From a virus, in the IMG/VR virus record IMGVR_UViG_3300006037_000028, positions 1 to 26,616 of that record: a stretch of DNA of 26,616 nucleotides. One strand, written 5' to 3'. Made by a program: the position numbers and the translations under genes. This document shows, piece after piece, positions 871 through 9,103 of the stretch. Within the stretch, counting starts at the first letter, position 1. Each line of letters starts with the position of its first letter. The notes under the pieces were generated by a model. It was given only the letters and a program-made list of their open reading frames with translations. It did not search any database and was not told where the DNA came from.

Positions 871-1248
871 ATGACTACGTTTGCTGATCGTTTAAAAGAG
901 TCCAGGGTTAGAGCTGGACTGACTCAAGAGGGGCTTGCTAAGGCTATTGGCCAAAAAAGCCAGTCGGTTATTTCGTCTATTGAGTCCGGACAAAATAAAT
1001 CAACATCATATCTTCCAGAAATTGCAAAAGCCGTTGGTGTCGATGCCTTTTGGCTTAAAACCGGCAAAGGATCACCCAACAGCGCTGCTCTTAAGCCTGA
1101 CGAGCAACTAATCCTTGAAGCATTCCGCCTGTTCGATGATGACCGCCGGGAAGTTTGGTTGCTTATGGCTCGACAGACCGTAAAAGACACTAACGCGAAA
1201 CAAACAAACAAAGGCCGCGTGATCCAACTGGCGGACTACCGCAGATGA
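871..1248 (+). CDS. XRE-family phage repressor (CI-like, short)
   Basis: A 125-residue protein. Residues 5-60 form a typical XRE/lambda-repressor helix-turn-helix: FADRLKESRVRAGLTQEGLAKAIG, then QSVISSIESGQ as the recognition-helix region, then YLPEIAKAVGV and FWLKTGKG. The remaining 60 residues include a hydrophobic helix (LDEQ..AFRLFDDDRREVWLLMA pattern) but no LexA/CI-type Ser-Lys autopeptidase domain, so RecA-triggered self-cleavage is not expected; induction may depend on an antirepressor. It most likely keeps the lysogenic state by binding the repeated 17-bp sequences at 807-823, 3874-3890 and 3901-3917. Its stop overlaps ATGA with a tiny frame that is interrupted by the insertion sequence. 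It is more AT-rich than the late genes. Confidence 0.85.
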   Translation: MTTFADRLKESRVRAGLTQEGLAKAIGQKSQSVISSIESGQNKSTSYLPEIAKAVGVDAFWLKTGKGSPNSAALKPDEQLILEAFRLFDDDRREVWLLMARQTVKDTNAKQTNKGRVIQLADYRR

Positions 1249-4129: not shown

Positions 4130-4489
4130 ATGACCAACAAAATCACCATCCCAGAACTCGCCGAAGGCGAACGCTACATCGGCGCCAGCGTCGATCCGGA
4201 AGGAAACCTGACGCACGTCATCCTTCTCCCTGGTGAAAAGAAAGCCACCTGGAAAAGCGCCCTCAAGTGGGCGGCCAGCATTGGCGATCTGCCCACGCGC
4301 CTTGAGCAATCGCTCCTGTACGCACATGCCAAGGACGCCTTCGAGCCGGATTACTACTGGTCAAACACGCAGCACGCTTCCAATTCGGGCTGTGCCTGGT
4401 ACCAGTACTTCGGCAATGGCGGCCAGTACTACGACTACGCCGACGACGAGCTCCGGGCCCGTGCCGTCCGCAGATTAATCATTCAGTAA
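4130..4489 (+). CDS. DGR variable protein 1 (C-type-lectin-like, DUF1566-type)
   Basis: A 119-residue protein with no signal peptide. The fold pattern is that of the DUF1566/Lcl-like C-type-lectin domain: PELAEGERYIG at the start, ATWKSALKWAASI, LPTRLEQSLLYA, then YYWSN, AWYQYFGNG and the closing LRARAVRRL. The last third is the variable region (4376-4477), in which only first and second codon bases differ from its two paralogues at 4518 and 5593. DGR targets of this fold display variable side chains on a ligand-binding face, so the protein is inferred to be a binding protein; its ligand is unknown. GGAG precedes the ATG. Unlike phage DGR targets that are tail tips, it carries no virion domain. 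Confidence 0.85.
   Translation: MTNKITIPELAEGERYIGASVDPEGNLTHVILLPGEKKATWKSALKWAASIGDLPTRLEQSLLYAHAKDAFEPDYYWSNTQHASNSGCAWYQYFGNGGQYYDYADDELRARAVRRLIIQ
4376..4477 (+). repeat. DGR variable repeat VR1
   Basis: This aligns without gaps to 5013-5114 and 5845-5946, apart from one codon offset at the 5' limit that I cannot place exactly. From 4385 to 4450, 20 columns vary among the three copies and none is a third codon position; 16 of the 20 have A in at least one copy. The final 27 bases (4451-4477) are identical in all three and GC-rich in the first 20, as expected for the fixed end where mutagenic homing starts. Confidence 0.85.
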
Positions 4490-4517: not shown

Positions 4518-5126
4518 ATGGGCGATCGCATCCTTGAATTAATGCGCAAGCGGTTGGAAAAGTGGGAACTTGAACACCTGCGCGAACTGGCCATTCAACT
4601 TCAGGACCGCCTCGAGCGCGCTGAAGAGGATGCAATCCAGGAACGCACATTCGGCGATCACTGGCATCGTGAAGCTATGTCGATGATTAGCGAACTGTCG
4701 GCAGAAGGCCGCACCATCGGCCTCACGAAGTCCGCTGAAATCCTTGTTTCTGCCCCGCCGACATCAAGCCTCGAAGTCCCCATCCTCAACGAAGGCGAGA
4801 TCTACCTGGGCGCCATCATCTGCGGCGAGAGCGCCCACCGTCATCACACCATCCTGTTGCCAGGCGATGTCGAGAACAAGACATGGAAGCAGGCCATGAA
4901 GTGGGCAGCCGACCAGGGCGGCGACCTGCCGAACCGTGTCGAGCAGGCACTGCTGTTCGCCACGCTGAAGAGCGAGTTCCAGGAAGCGGCCTACTGGTCG
5001 AATTCGCAGCACGCAGTCTTTTCGGACTTTGCCTGGTACCAGAGCTTCGGCAATGGCAGCCAGTACGGCGCCGTCGCCAGCAACGAGCTCCGGGCCCGTG
5101 CCGTCCGCAGATTAATCATTCAGTAA
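4518..5126 (+). CDS. DGR variable protein 2 with helical N-terminal extension
   Basis: A 202-residue protein. Residues 1-75 form long charged helices with heptad-like leucines (ILELMRKRLEKWELEHLREL, QDRLERAEED), probably a coiled coil for assembly. A short linker (PPTSS) leads to a DUF1566-type lectin-like domain: EGEIYLGAIIC, HTILLPGD, TWKQAMKWAADQG, LPNRVEQALLFA, AYWSNSQHAVFSDFAWYQSFGNG and LRARAVRRLIIQ. Its 3' end is variable repeat 2. The start at 4518 is chosen over 4512 because GGAG then sits six bases upstream. The coiled coil could multimerise the display domain or attach it to a partner, which is inference. Confidence 0.85.
   Translation: MGDRILELMRKRLEKWELEHLRELAIQLQDRLERAEEDAIQERTFGDHWHREAMSMISELSAEGRTIGLTKSAEILVSAPPTSSLEVPILNEGEIYLGAIICGESAHRHHTILLPGDVENKTWKQAMKWAADQGGDLPNRVEQALLFATLKSEFQEAAYWSNSQHAVFSDFAWYQSFGNGSQYGAVASNELRARAVRRLIIQ
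5013..5114 (+). repeat. DGR variable repeat VR2
   Basis: Second copy. It shares GTCTTTTCGGACTTTGCC with VR3 exactly, while the codons after TGGTACCAG differ from both other copies only at first and second positions. Variable codons include AGC, GGC, GCC, GTC and AAC, all NNC, consistent with AAC in the template. Confidence 0.85.
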
Positions 5127-5154
5127 TTCAATAATTTCGATTCCGGAGTCAGCC

Positions 5155-5385
5155 ATGAAACGTCCGCTCAATGCCGTTCTGCGTTCCGTCGCGAAGTTCC
5201 AGATGCGTTCTCTCGAGATCAGCCTGCAGGGGAAGCTGGACACCCTGCCCTACGTCACCGACGAAGCAACGCTGGCCTGCATGCGCATCTCGATCCGCCA
5301 GCTGCAGATTGATCTCGCCAAGGCCCGTTCGCGTTACCAGTCGTTTCTCCCGGCCGGCGAACGATTCATCTGGGAAGTGGCGTGA
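5155..5385 (+). CDS. small basic helical protein between variable proteins
   Basis: A 76-residue protein MKRPLNAVLRSVAKF... predicted to be almost entirely helical and basic, with leucines spaced for packing (SLEISLQGKL, ISIRQLQIDLAKARSRYQSF). There is no known motif. GGAG lies six bases before the ATG in a context very like that of variable protein 2. It sits between two DGR targets, so it may be an accessory or chaperone of those proteins. It overlaps the next gene by one base (TGATG). Confidence 0.6.
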   Translation: MKRPLNAVLRSVAKFQMRSLEISLQGKLDTLPYVTDEATLACMRISIRQLQIDLAKARSRYQSFLPAGERFIWEVA

Positions 5386-5522
5386 TGAATACCGGCCACC
5401 ACCTCGCCAGCATGGCAGAGCGCCGCGATCAGTTTGACCGCATGGCCGGCTTGCTTGTCGCCTTCCTGTGCTGCATCGGAACGTTTTCAGCCGGGCTGCT
5501 CACGTGGGCGGTCCTGTGCTGA
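5385..5522 (+). CDS. 45-residue single-pass membrane protein
   Basis: A short protein MNTGHHLASMAERRDQFDRM followed by one hydrophobic span (AGLLVAFLCCIGTFSAGLLTWAVL). The start overlaps the stop of the previous gene (TGATG), the mark of translational coupling. The arginine-containing head before the span suggests a single inner-membrane helix. It is too short for a family call. It could be a holin-like, toxin-like or anchoring peptide acting with the neighbouring variable proteins; none of this is shown by the sequence. Confidence 0.5.
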   Translation: MNTGHHLASMAERRDQFDRMAGLLVAFLCCIGTFSAGLLTWAVLC

Positions 5523-5592
5523 TCGGCCTAGCCATCGCACTGGCTGTGCTCTGTCTGACCAATCTCTTTCTCGACTAATCCAAGGAATCACG

Positions 5593-5955
5593 ATGCAAAC
5601 CATCTCCATGCCAGAACTCGCCGCCGGTGAGACCTACATCGCCACCCTCTTCGATGCGGCCTCCCAGACCGGACAGCACATCATCCTGCTCGATGGCGAC
5701 AACAACAACGCTACCTGGGAAGAGCAGAAATCCTGGGCAACCAGCATCGGCGGGGAGTTGCCGACCCGCTTCGAGCAGGCCCTGCTCTACGCCAAGCACA
5801 AGGATCTGTTCCAGGTCAATTGGTACTGGTCTGGCGAGCAGGACGCAGTCTTTTCGGACTTTGCCTGGTACCAGGTCTTCGGCGATGGCGGCCAGCTCAG
5901 CTACTTCACCTACATCAAGCTCCGGGCCCGTGCCGTCCGCAGATTAGCCATTTAA
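5593..5955 (+). CDS. DGR variable protein 3 (C-type-lectin-like, DUF1566-type)
   Basis: A 120-residue protein MQTISMPELAAGETYIATL..., a paralogue of the genes at 4130 and 4518: HIILLDGD, TWEEQKSWATSIG, LPTRFEQALLYA, WYWSGEQDAVFSDFAWYQVFGDG, and the fixed LRARAVRRL end. The frame is open further upstream to 5434, but AAGGA about six bases before the ATG at 5593 and the match to the paralogues fix this start. It has no signal peptide. It lies directly before the Avd gene, the classical order in DGR cassettes. The last five codons (TTA GCC ATT TAA) differ from those in the other two genes after the fixed block. Confidence 0.85.
   Translation: MQTISMPELAAGETYIATLFDAASQTGQHIILLDGDNNNATWEEQKSWATSIGGELPTRFEQALLYAKHKDLFQVNWYWSGEQDAVFSDFAWYQVFGDGGQLSYFTYIKLRARAVRRLAI
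5845..5946 (+). repeat. DGR variable repeat VR3
   Basis: Third copy. In this one GAG of the other copies is AAG, and GCC is ACC, giving the A expected in a template at those sites. The 27-base fixed block (5920-5946) is identical to that of VR1 and VR2. Confidence 0.85.
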
Positions 5956-5981
5956 CCATTTAATTATTGCTTTTCATCAGC

Positions 5982-6332
5982 ATGGCCCAAACCACCCACC
6001 TGCCGATTTACAAGGTTGCCTACGATCTGCTTGGCCTGGTCACCGACTTGGTCAGGAACATGCCGCGCGACTCGAAGCAAACGATCGGCATCAAGATCAA
6101 CCAGGAGTGCGTCGAGATCGTCGTTCTGATCTTCCGCGCCAACTGCGCCCGTGACAAGGCACCGCACCTGGAAGACCTGATCGAGCACCTGCAAGTCATC
6201 GAACTGCTGCTGCGCCTGTCGCGAGACAAGCGCCTGATCTCGACCAAGGGCTATGCCCAGGCCATCGAGCTAACCGGCAGTATCGGCAAGGCAGACCTTA
6301 CCAAAACCTATCGCAGGAGTATTTCAGCATGA
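5982..6332 (+). CDS. avd: Avd-type DGR accessory protein (four-helix bundle)
   Basis: A 116-residue, mostly helical basic protein. The order of signatures matches the bAvd/four-helix-bundle family: LPIYKVAYDLLGLVTDLVRNMPRDSK at the start, TIGIKINQECVEIVVLIFRANCARDK in helix 2, LEDLIEHLQVIELLLRLSRD in helix 3 and KRLISTKGYAQAIELTGSIGK in helix 4. In known DGRs Avd forms a pentameric barrel that binds the reverse transcriptase and template RNA and is required for mutagenic homing. Here it follows the third variable protein, but the reverse transcriptase normally nearby is missing. The start at 5982 is preferred over a TTG at 5967; neither has a strong ribosome binding site, so it is probably coupled to upstream translation. 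It overlaps the next gene by ATGA. Confidence 0.85.
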   Translation: MAQTTHLPIYKVAYDLLGLVTDLVRNMPRDSKQTIGIKINQECVEIVVLIFRANCARDKAPHLEDLIEHLQVIELLLRLSRDKRLISTKGYAQAIELTGSIGKADLTKTYRRSISA

Positions 6333-8409: not shown

Positions 8410-8720
8410 CTACGAAAAACATCACCGACCTGCGCCGCATCATGTTCGACACGCTTCAGGCGTTGCAGGACAAGAAAAACCCACTGGACATCGAGCGCGC
8501 ACTGGCCATCAAGGAAGTCGACCAGGTCATCGTCAATAGCGCGAAGGTCGAAATCGATTACCTGAAGATTACCGGCCAGGGCGGTAGCGGGTTTATTCCA
8601 GAGGAATTGACCAGCGCACCGCGCCTGCGGGGCGAAACCGTAGAGCCAACCGGCCATGGCATGAAGACCATCACGCACCTTCCCGGCGGCACCACGATCA
8701 CCCGACACAAGGCCAGCTGA
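8406..8720 (+). CDS. hypothetical phage early protein
   Basis: A 104-residue protein. An N-terminal helical part (DLRRIMFDTLQALQDKKNPLDIERALAIKEV) leads to a Gly-rich region and ends in a short beta-like stretch (THLPGGTTITRH). Similar small proteins with the DIERA/KEV pattern are common in temperate phages of proteobacteria; the role is unknown. ATGA overlap with the HNH gene. Confidence 0.65.
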   Translation: MTTKNITDLRRIMFDTLQALQDKKNPLDIERALAIKEVDQVIVNSAKVEIDYLKITGQGGSGFIPEELTSAPRLRGETVEPTGHGMKTITHLPGGTTITRHKAS

Positions 8721-8722
8721 CC

Positions 8723-9103
8723 ATGGGCCATAAAAAAAGCATCACATCAATGCTAGTCCATCGCCAGGTTCCAATCTTTCCAGAAGGCCTGCCGAAATAC
8801 ATCAATCGGCCAGATGCAAATCGCCGTCCGCTCATCGTTTCCACCGAGCAGTATCCGCAGGATATTGAGGACAAAACCGCTTTGCAGGCCGCTCGTCAAT
8901 GTTCTGGTGCAGCCAGCATTGCCCAGAGCCGCCATGCGGTAATGGATGCGATCAAGGCCGGCGCGAAGACGAAATCAGAGATTCAGGCGAAGTCCGGTCT
9001 GTCGAAATCCAGCGTTTTTAATCATGTCCGGTCGATGGCAAAGGATGGGATTCTGATGTTCGACAAATCGACTTCGCCTTGGACTGTTGAGGTGACGGGA
9101 TGA
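8723..9103 (+). CDS. winged-helix DNA-binding protein
   Basis: A 126-residue protein. Residues about 70-125 form a winged helix-turn-helix: AVMDAIKAGAKTKSEIQAKSG, then LSKSSVFNHVRSMAKDGILMF as turn and recognition helix, then a short wing TSPWTVEV. The N-terminal 60 residues carry several prolines and no known domain. It is probably a phage transcription or replication regulator. It is coupled to the following gene (ATGA). Confidence 0.7.
   Translation: MGHKKSITSMLVHRQVPIFPEGLPKYINRPDANRRPLIVSTEQYPQDIEDKTALQAARQCSGAASIAQSRHAVMDAIKAGAKTKSEIQAKSGLSKSSVFNHVRSMAKDGILMFDKSTSPWTVEVTG

Follow-up and report, generated by a model that had tools for sequence, protein, structure and literature searches.

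A phage DGR with three targets, probably broken by a recent deletion that joined avd to the end of the reverse transcriptase gene

The DNA analysed here (the window: IMG/VR record IMGVR_UViG_3300006037_000028, 26,616 nt or 26.6 kb, possibly a fragment) carries three lectin-fold target genes with variable repeats (VR1-3) and an avd gene whose reading frame ends in codons of a reverse transcriptase (RT) (Table 1). In all likelihood, this is a multi-target DGR of a tailed phage that was recently broken by one deletion of ~1.4 kb and is now frozen. Of the parts of a functional DGR, the locus keeps VRs that vary at adenine sites beside an invariant IMH, and an Avd with its last residues swapped for the RT tail; the DGR-type RT is reduced to 13 C-terminal codons and a template repeat (TR) with adenines at the variable positions is absent. 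Such a locus most likely no longer works as a DGR, since inactivation of RT, Avd or TR in the reconstituted BPP-1 system brought repair down to about 1e-9 (PMC12875486). What remains is probably a set of three recently scrambled proteins of a surface-binding type, frozen by the deletion.

Table 1. Features of the locus and its surroundings, in positions of the window
Feature	Position	Strand	Remarks
Phage repressor gene	871-1248		adjoins the ISL3 transposase
ISL3-family transposase ORF	1406-2779 (element ~1289-2840)	-	DDE_Tnp_ISL3 E=5e-48, plus HTH and zinc-ribbon domains
Target protein 1, 119 aa, C-type-lectin-like	4130..4489	+	VR1 core 4394-4450, IMH block 4451-4477
Target protein 2, 204 aa	4512..5126	+	VR2 core 5031-5087, IMH block 5088-5114
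Target protein 3, 120 aa from ATG 5593	5593..5955	+	VR3 core 5863-5919, IMH block 5920-5946
Avd ORF	5982-6332	+	ATG at 5982, stop at 6332
Avd-derived part, residues 1-103 (ending SIGK)	5982..6290	+	profile matches, alignment with 11 relatives
CAAG at the proposed deletion junction	6287..6290	+	in intact relatives on both sides, avd and RT
RT-derived tail, ADLTKTYRRSISA-stop	6291..6332	+	in frame with avd; leftover of the C-terminus of a DGR RT
Next gene, 126 aa	6329..6709	+	ATGA overlap (4 bases) with the fused ORF
C5 cytosine DNA methyltransferase, 563 aa	9944-11635	same as DGR genes	downstream of the DGR genes

The target proteins resemble those of Burkholderia phage Magia (MT701587): protein 1 is homologous to Magia gp47/gp46 (its match to Pfam Lcl_C, E=1.2e-6, stays under the cut-off), protein 2 is 56% identical to protein 1 over 121 aa and protein 3 is 50% identical to gp47. 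A sequence search of the PDB with the profile of these variable proteins (VPs) gave nothing convincing. Variation among VR1-3 touches 18 of the 84 aligned columns (57 of core and 27 of IMH), always at codon positions 1 or 2 and at none of the 28 third positions; in the 84 nt upstream of the VRs, 42 columns vary, 14 of them third positions. When a 66-nt VR core is aligned with the TR of the intact relative G003, 17 of the 20 variable columns fall on its adenines (p=1e-7). VR1-3 bear the adenine-mutagenesis signature of a DGR.

The repeats also look fresh, as the three copies agree at 66 of the 84 columns, so that either the loss of RT and TR was recent or another source still homogenises the VRs. 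If the sites are neutral, the 95% upper bound is ~1.5% change per site since the last homogenisation, a bound that selection would loosen. A relative, G007 (L027/L074, IMGVR 3300020045_011236), carries at its positions 60-874 an 815-bp stretch of the VP2-VP3 region with 88.8% identity to the window, and its VR differs from VR2 at 10 of the 18 variable (A-site) columns and at 1 of the 39 others; diversification therefore postdates the split of the two lineages. The rest of this 17-kb contig has no DNA similarity to the window outside the target genes, and target modules, or the cassette, seem to move between phages. A block shared by VR2 and VR3, CGCAGTCTTTTCGGACTTTGCC, sits where the TRs of relatives have few adenines and thus need not mean gene conversion.

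Most of the window is present in a twin contig, G001 (IMG/VR 3300006805_000097, 31.7 kb), which is 99.977% identical to positions 5006-26616 (21.6 kb), with 5 mismatches, none of them in the VRs, and with the same structure at the locus and no RT. It is identical to the window across the shared part of VR2 and all of VR3, and it reaches 10.1 kb beyond the right end of the window, so that 36.7 kb are covered by the two records. Their genes include those for the large and small terminase, portal, head, tail, tape measure, endolysin and primase; with such a set, the phage looks tailed and largely complete, at 36.7 kb or more. G001 starts at window position 5006, within VR2 and ~10 bp before the block shared with VR3, and G002 and G007 likewise end within VP/VR regions, perhaps because repeats broke the assembly or because the VRs truly vary in the G001 sample.

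A preliminary description of the locus had reported no RT frame and no fourth copy of the fixed 27-base block, and both statements were borne out. The RVT_1 profile has no match in the window or in the 31.7 kb of G001, and tblastn with a DGR RT has none either, which rules out an RT hidden elsewhere or in a dispersed cassette for the 36.7 kb. The IMH block, searched on the coding strand with 5-6 mismatches allowed, occurs three times only, each time in a VR, and no AAC-rich, TR-like sequence is present in the window or in the 10.1-kb extension of G001. An RT and template just outside the window, which the same description had named as the finding that would turn the locus into an ordinary DGR, are absent from these 10.1 kb on the right side.

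The gene after target protein 3 had been taken for an Avd, and profiles agree: Pfam bAvd (E=3.6e-12, above the cut-off), PHROG 3206, "Avd protein of DGR" (E=6.5e-27), and NCBIfam DivGenRetAVD (E=1.6e-13, under the equivalog cut-off of that model). An AlphaFold2 model of the Avd part, built on an alignment of the window with rows of its relatives, is predicted to be all helical (mean pLDDT 82), and the Avd profile, run against the sequences of the PDB, returned designed ankyrin proteins and other weak matches only, which we take as noise. The bounds of the ORF were given correctly, but the origin of its last 13 codons (6291-6329) had been missed: they are derived from RT and not from Avd. The window protein ends SIGK-ADLTKTYRRSISA-stop, whereas the alignment has SIGKQAxGWR... 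in intact relatives, and ADLTKTYRR continues a conserved RT C-terminus, G003, G004 and G006 having exactly KADLTKTYRR at the C-terminus of their RTs. The match of the tail to RT scores 51 against a maximum of 30 among 6000 random segments of the window, and 28 of 36 nt of its DNA are identical to the end of the G003 RT gene.

The junction downstream points the same way. The next gene does overlap the fused ORF by four bases (ATGA) and encodes 126 residues, as had been described, with a start at 6329; the same overlap of the RT stop with a following gene is found in 52 of 77 relatives. Homologues of the 126-aa protein were found only in G001 (100%) and L032 (54%), the latter copy not being beside a DGR in the part covered. 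An RT-like tail together with an RT-type ATGA overlap indicates that one deletion took the last part of avd and the TR along with almost the whole RT gene, and left a scar at which both ends of a formerly intact cassette meet. Measured on G003, the missing DNA would extend from after avd codon 103 to ~11 codons before the RT stop, ~1.39 kb (about 1.4 kb). Since CAAG stands on both sides in relatives, a deletion at this 4-nt microhomology is plausible.

We propose that the ancestral order would have been VP-VR1, VP-VR2, VP-VR3, Avd, TR and RT, and that a single ~1.4-kb deletion, starting close to the end of the avd gene and reaching to ~13 codons before the RT stop, would have removed the C-terminus of avd, the entire TR and nearly all of the RT. 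It would have left an in-frame avd::RT-tail fusion with its ATGA coupling to the next gene, and three intact target genes, presumably still expressed and fixed at their last diversified state, so that the phage could not rescramble them by itself. The deletion was perhaps tolerated with the coupling preserved and the targets still useful; such deletions may survive because in-frame joining keeps the ATGA coupling. Against this reading one can hold the fresh look of the VRs and the still open frame of the Avd part, as well as the extent of the sequence: several intact relatives measure 45-48 kb and ~37 kb of the present phage are covered, so that about a fifth of it may lie outside the two records, above all left of position 1. 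In addition, G001 is perhaps not independent of the window, since the samples may be related.

RT loss in this lineage is not confined to the window. With the Avd alignment as bait, we recovered 245 Avd relatives in IMG/VR and surveyed the best 80 of them. In 73 of these best 80 of 245 loci an RT lies directly downstream in one stretch, i.e., the nearest relatives of the window have an intact cassette; the other seven comprise four RT deletions (G001, L134, L151 and L128), two frameshifted RTs (L089 and L103) and one contig that ends within RT (L092). The Avd of L134 (G010) is truncated, ending ...AIELTNPTAR, in a 36.7-kb contig without RT. That of L151 (G028) is also truncated, ends ...EITGRRTK with an ATGA overlap and lies in a 41.5-kb contig without RT; its last bases fit an RT tail (RRTK-stop) and it is probably a second avd::RT-tail fusion. 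In L128 (G029, IMGVR 3300047446_000089, 5001-6023), Avd is separated by an HNH endonuclease gene from what is left of RT, its last 49 residues. The RVT_1 profile finds nothing along the whole of these three contigs (36-42 kb). Beyond the best 80, G012 (L046/L071, IMGVR 3300043406_000058), a distant relative, keeps TR and Avd and has an RT with a deleted catalytic core and a frameshift, and in G011 (L072, complement ~8500-9000) two VPs are followed by an HNH-type gene, without Avd or RT. Both HNH labels were read from the sequence, and homing-type endonuclease genes may have replaced DGR machinery in G029 and G011.

On a tree of Avd, built from few columns and with weak individual forks, the label "lost" takes 7 changes for the 7 RT-less or RT-broken rows and well-supported branches force at least 4; RT has therefore been lost repeatedly, in separate events. 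The terminal branches of G001 (0.32) and L151 (0.44) exceed the median of 0.067. Relaxed selection on Avd after RT loss was considered for this and set aside, as the fresh VRs speak for a recent loss and the other RT-less Avds are not long-branched. It is possible, though in our view rather unlikely, that phage DGRs of this lineage recurrently come to rest in a tolerated state in which Avd and intact targets remain while RT and TR are gone. At least two phages (window/G001 and G028/L151) would have reached it separately through in-frame avd::RT-tail fusions that keep translational coupling, and such phages would either lock in a successful receptor-binding variant or have their targets rewritten by the DGRs of other phages.

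Of the two readings in the preliminary description, an enzyme and template that act in trans and a remnant that has decayed but still shows fresh-looking diversity, the second is strongly supported by the scar and by the separate losses in relatives, and nothing positive was found for a supply in trans. The latter would mean that the deletion is real while VR1-3 are still diversified by Avd, TR and RT from a co-resident prophage or a co-infecting phage with a matching template. VRs that look recently rewritten, and the concentration of VR2/G007 differences at A-site columns, would fit this, but the template itself ought to match CAGNNCTTCGGCNATGGCNNCCAG...CTCCGGGCCCGTGCCGTCCGCAGA at the non-adenine sites, and the scans of IMG/VR (exact, with the 27-nt IMH, the 24-nt IMH and a degenerate TR core) place the IMH of the window only on G001 and G007 besides the window and the degenerate core only on G001 and an unrelated contig. 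None of 399 genomes from the family that has the nearest cellular DGR contains the IMH, and a TR that matches VR1-3 was found on no IMG/VR contig (27-nt or 24-nt IMH, degenerate core) and in none of the 399 genomes. A looser core gave 22 stretches, including further DGR phages and the two additional RT losses, G011 and G012. As the window and G001 moreover do not differ anywhere in VR3 or in the part of VR2 that they share, we consider continued diversification in trans improbable.

Even less credit is due, in our estimate, to a mixed population, in which sisters with an intact DGR coexist with a sporadic deletion allele that recombines fresh VRs from them. Long reads revealed such mixtures at DGR 3 and DGR 7 of Thiohalocapsa (PMC10907252), and the cassette seems mobile, judging from G007, but no intact sister above ~80% Avd identity is present among the 245 Avd relatives in IMG/VR. 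That RT and TR exist and were collapsed or skipped in assembly is scarcely credible: DGR regions do break assemblies, and G001, G002 and G007 end inside VP/VR regions, but the coding sequence around the junction is unique, with just ~4 nt common to both sides, and the junction recurs in two records with 5 SNPs between them. A recent deletion that froze the locus is thus the reading we retain.

Some observations concern the surroundings and the relatives. Sequences of the GGCTCTTCGGA type flank the ISL3 transposase on the outside, in opposite orientation; the element has no match in the Dechloromonas genome nor a close one in plasmids, and it may be the mark of a degrading prophage or a clue to the host. 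Shewanella phage vB_Sb_QDWS likewise has a cytosine methylase gene after RT, and G011 seems to have a similar one downstream of its VPs. Hujiaoplasma phage zrk29-1 (L014, OP650936; said to infect Tenericutes) and vB_Sb_QDWS (L013, OK094664) both measure 47,902, have nearly the same DGR region and are close to Magia; they are probably one phage with doubtful host labels. The Avd gene of G004 (L004, 10010-10246) is interrupted by a TGA stop while its DGR is intact in other respects, possibly an early inactivation or a sequencing error.

The locus belongs to a known class of decayed DGRs, and incomplete and RT-less loci have already been described in bacteria (PMC10907252); in the literature searched, with most subscription journals outside it, we found neither avd::RT-tail fusions nor a phage lineage with recurrent RT loss described. 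Surveys usually detect DGRs by their RT and therefore miss RT-less cassettes and leftover targets. Fossil DGRs could be detected with Avd or VRs as bait and the C-terminal tail of RT as the scar. The survey also gives a rough count of RT loss for one phage DGR lineage, six deleted or frameshifted among the best 80 of 245 Avd loci, and makes the question of whether DGRs are long kept or used and then fixed answerable by reads and complete genomes. We suggest, as a caution, that a deletion scar be sought before VR sets without RT are called trans-acting.

The intact counterpart of the locus is annotated in Magia as VP-VP-Avd-RT, with an RT stop that overlaps the next gene by ATGA, and this design recurs in vB_Sb_QDWS, in G002-G006 and in a genome region of Dechloromonas sp. 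CZR5, the TRs of the relatives being AAC-rich and placed between avd and RT or overlapping the 5′ end of RT. The window shares with them two to three lectin-fold VPs with VRs followed by Avd (~44-70% identity), the VR/IMH design, the TKTYR of the RT C-terminus and, as in many of them, the ATGA overlap with the next gene; unlike the window, they keep the AAC-rich TR and an RT of ~370-440 aa straight after avd, where the window has the avd::RT-tail fusion instead. The DGR of Bordetella phage BPP-1 (mtd-avd-TR-brt) is similar in its target-Avd order and its adenine-directed VR variation, as is generally known (PMC12875486), but has one target and a complete cassette. Similar in state are DGR 1, 3, 4, 5 and 7 of Thiohalocapsa PB-PSB1, which have target genes with VRs but have lost RT, TR or both, or have them disrupted (PMC10907252). 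There, supply in trans was inferred for RT-less loci, and for other loci a diversity older than the disruption or derived from intact siblings in the population (PMC10907252). Those loci lie on a bacterial chromosome, decayed through transposons and MITE-like arrays, and some are apparently served in trans (PMC10907252), whereas the window belongs to a phage and combines a clean deletion and its fusion scar with a search in which no helper was found.
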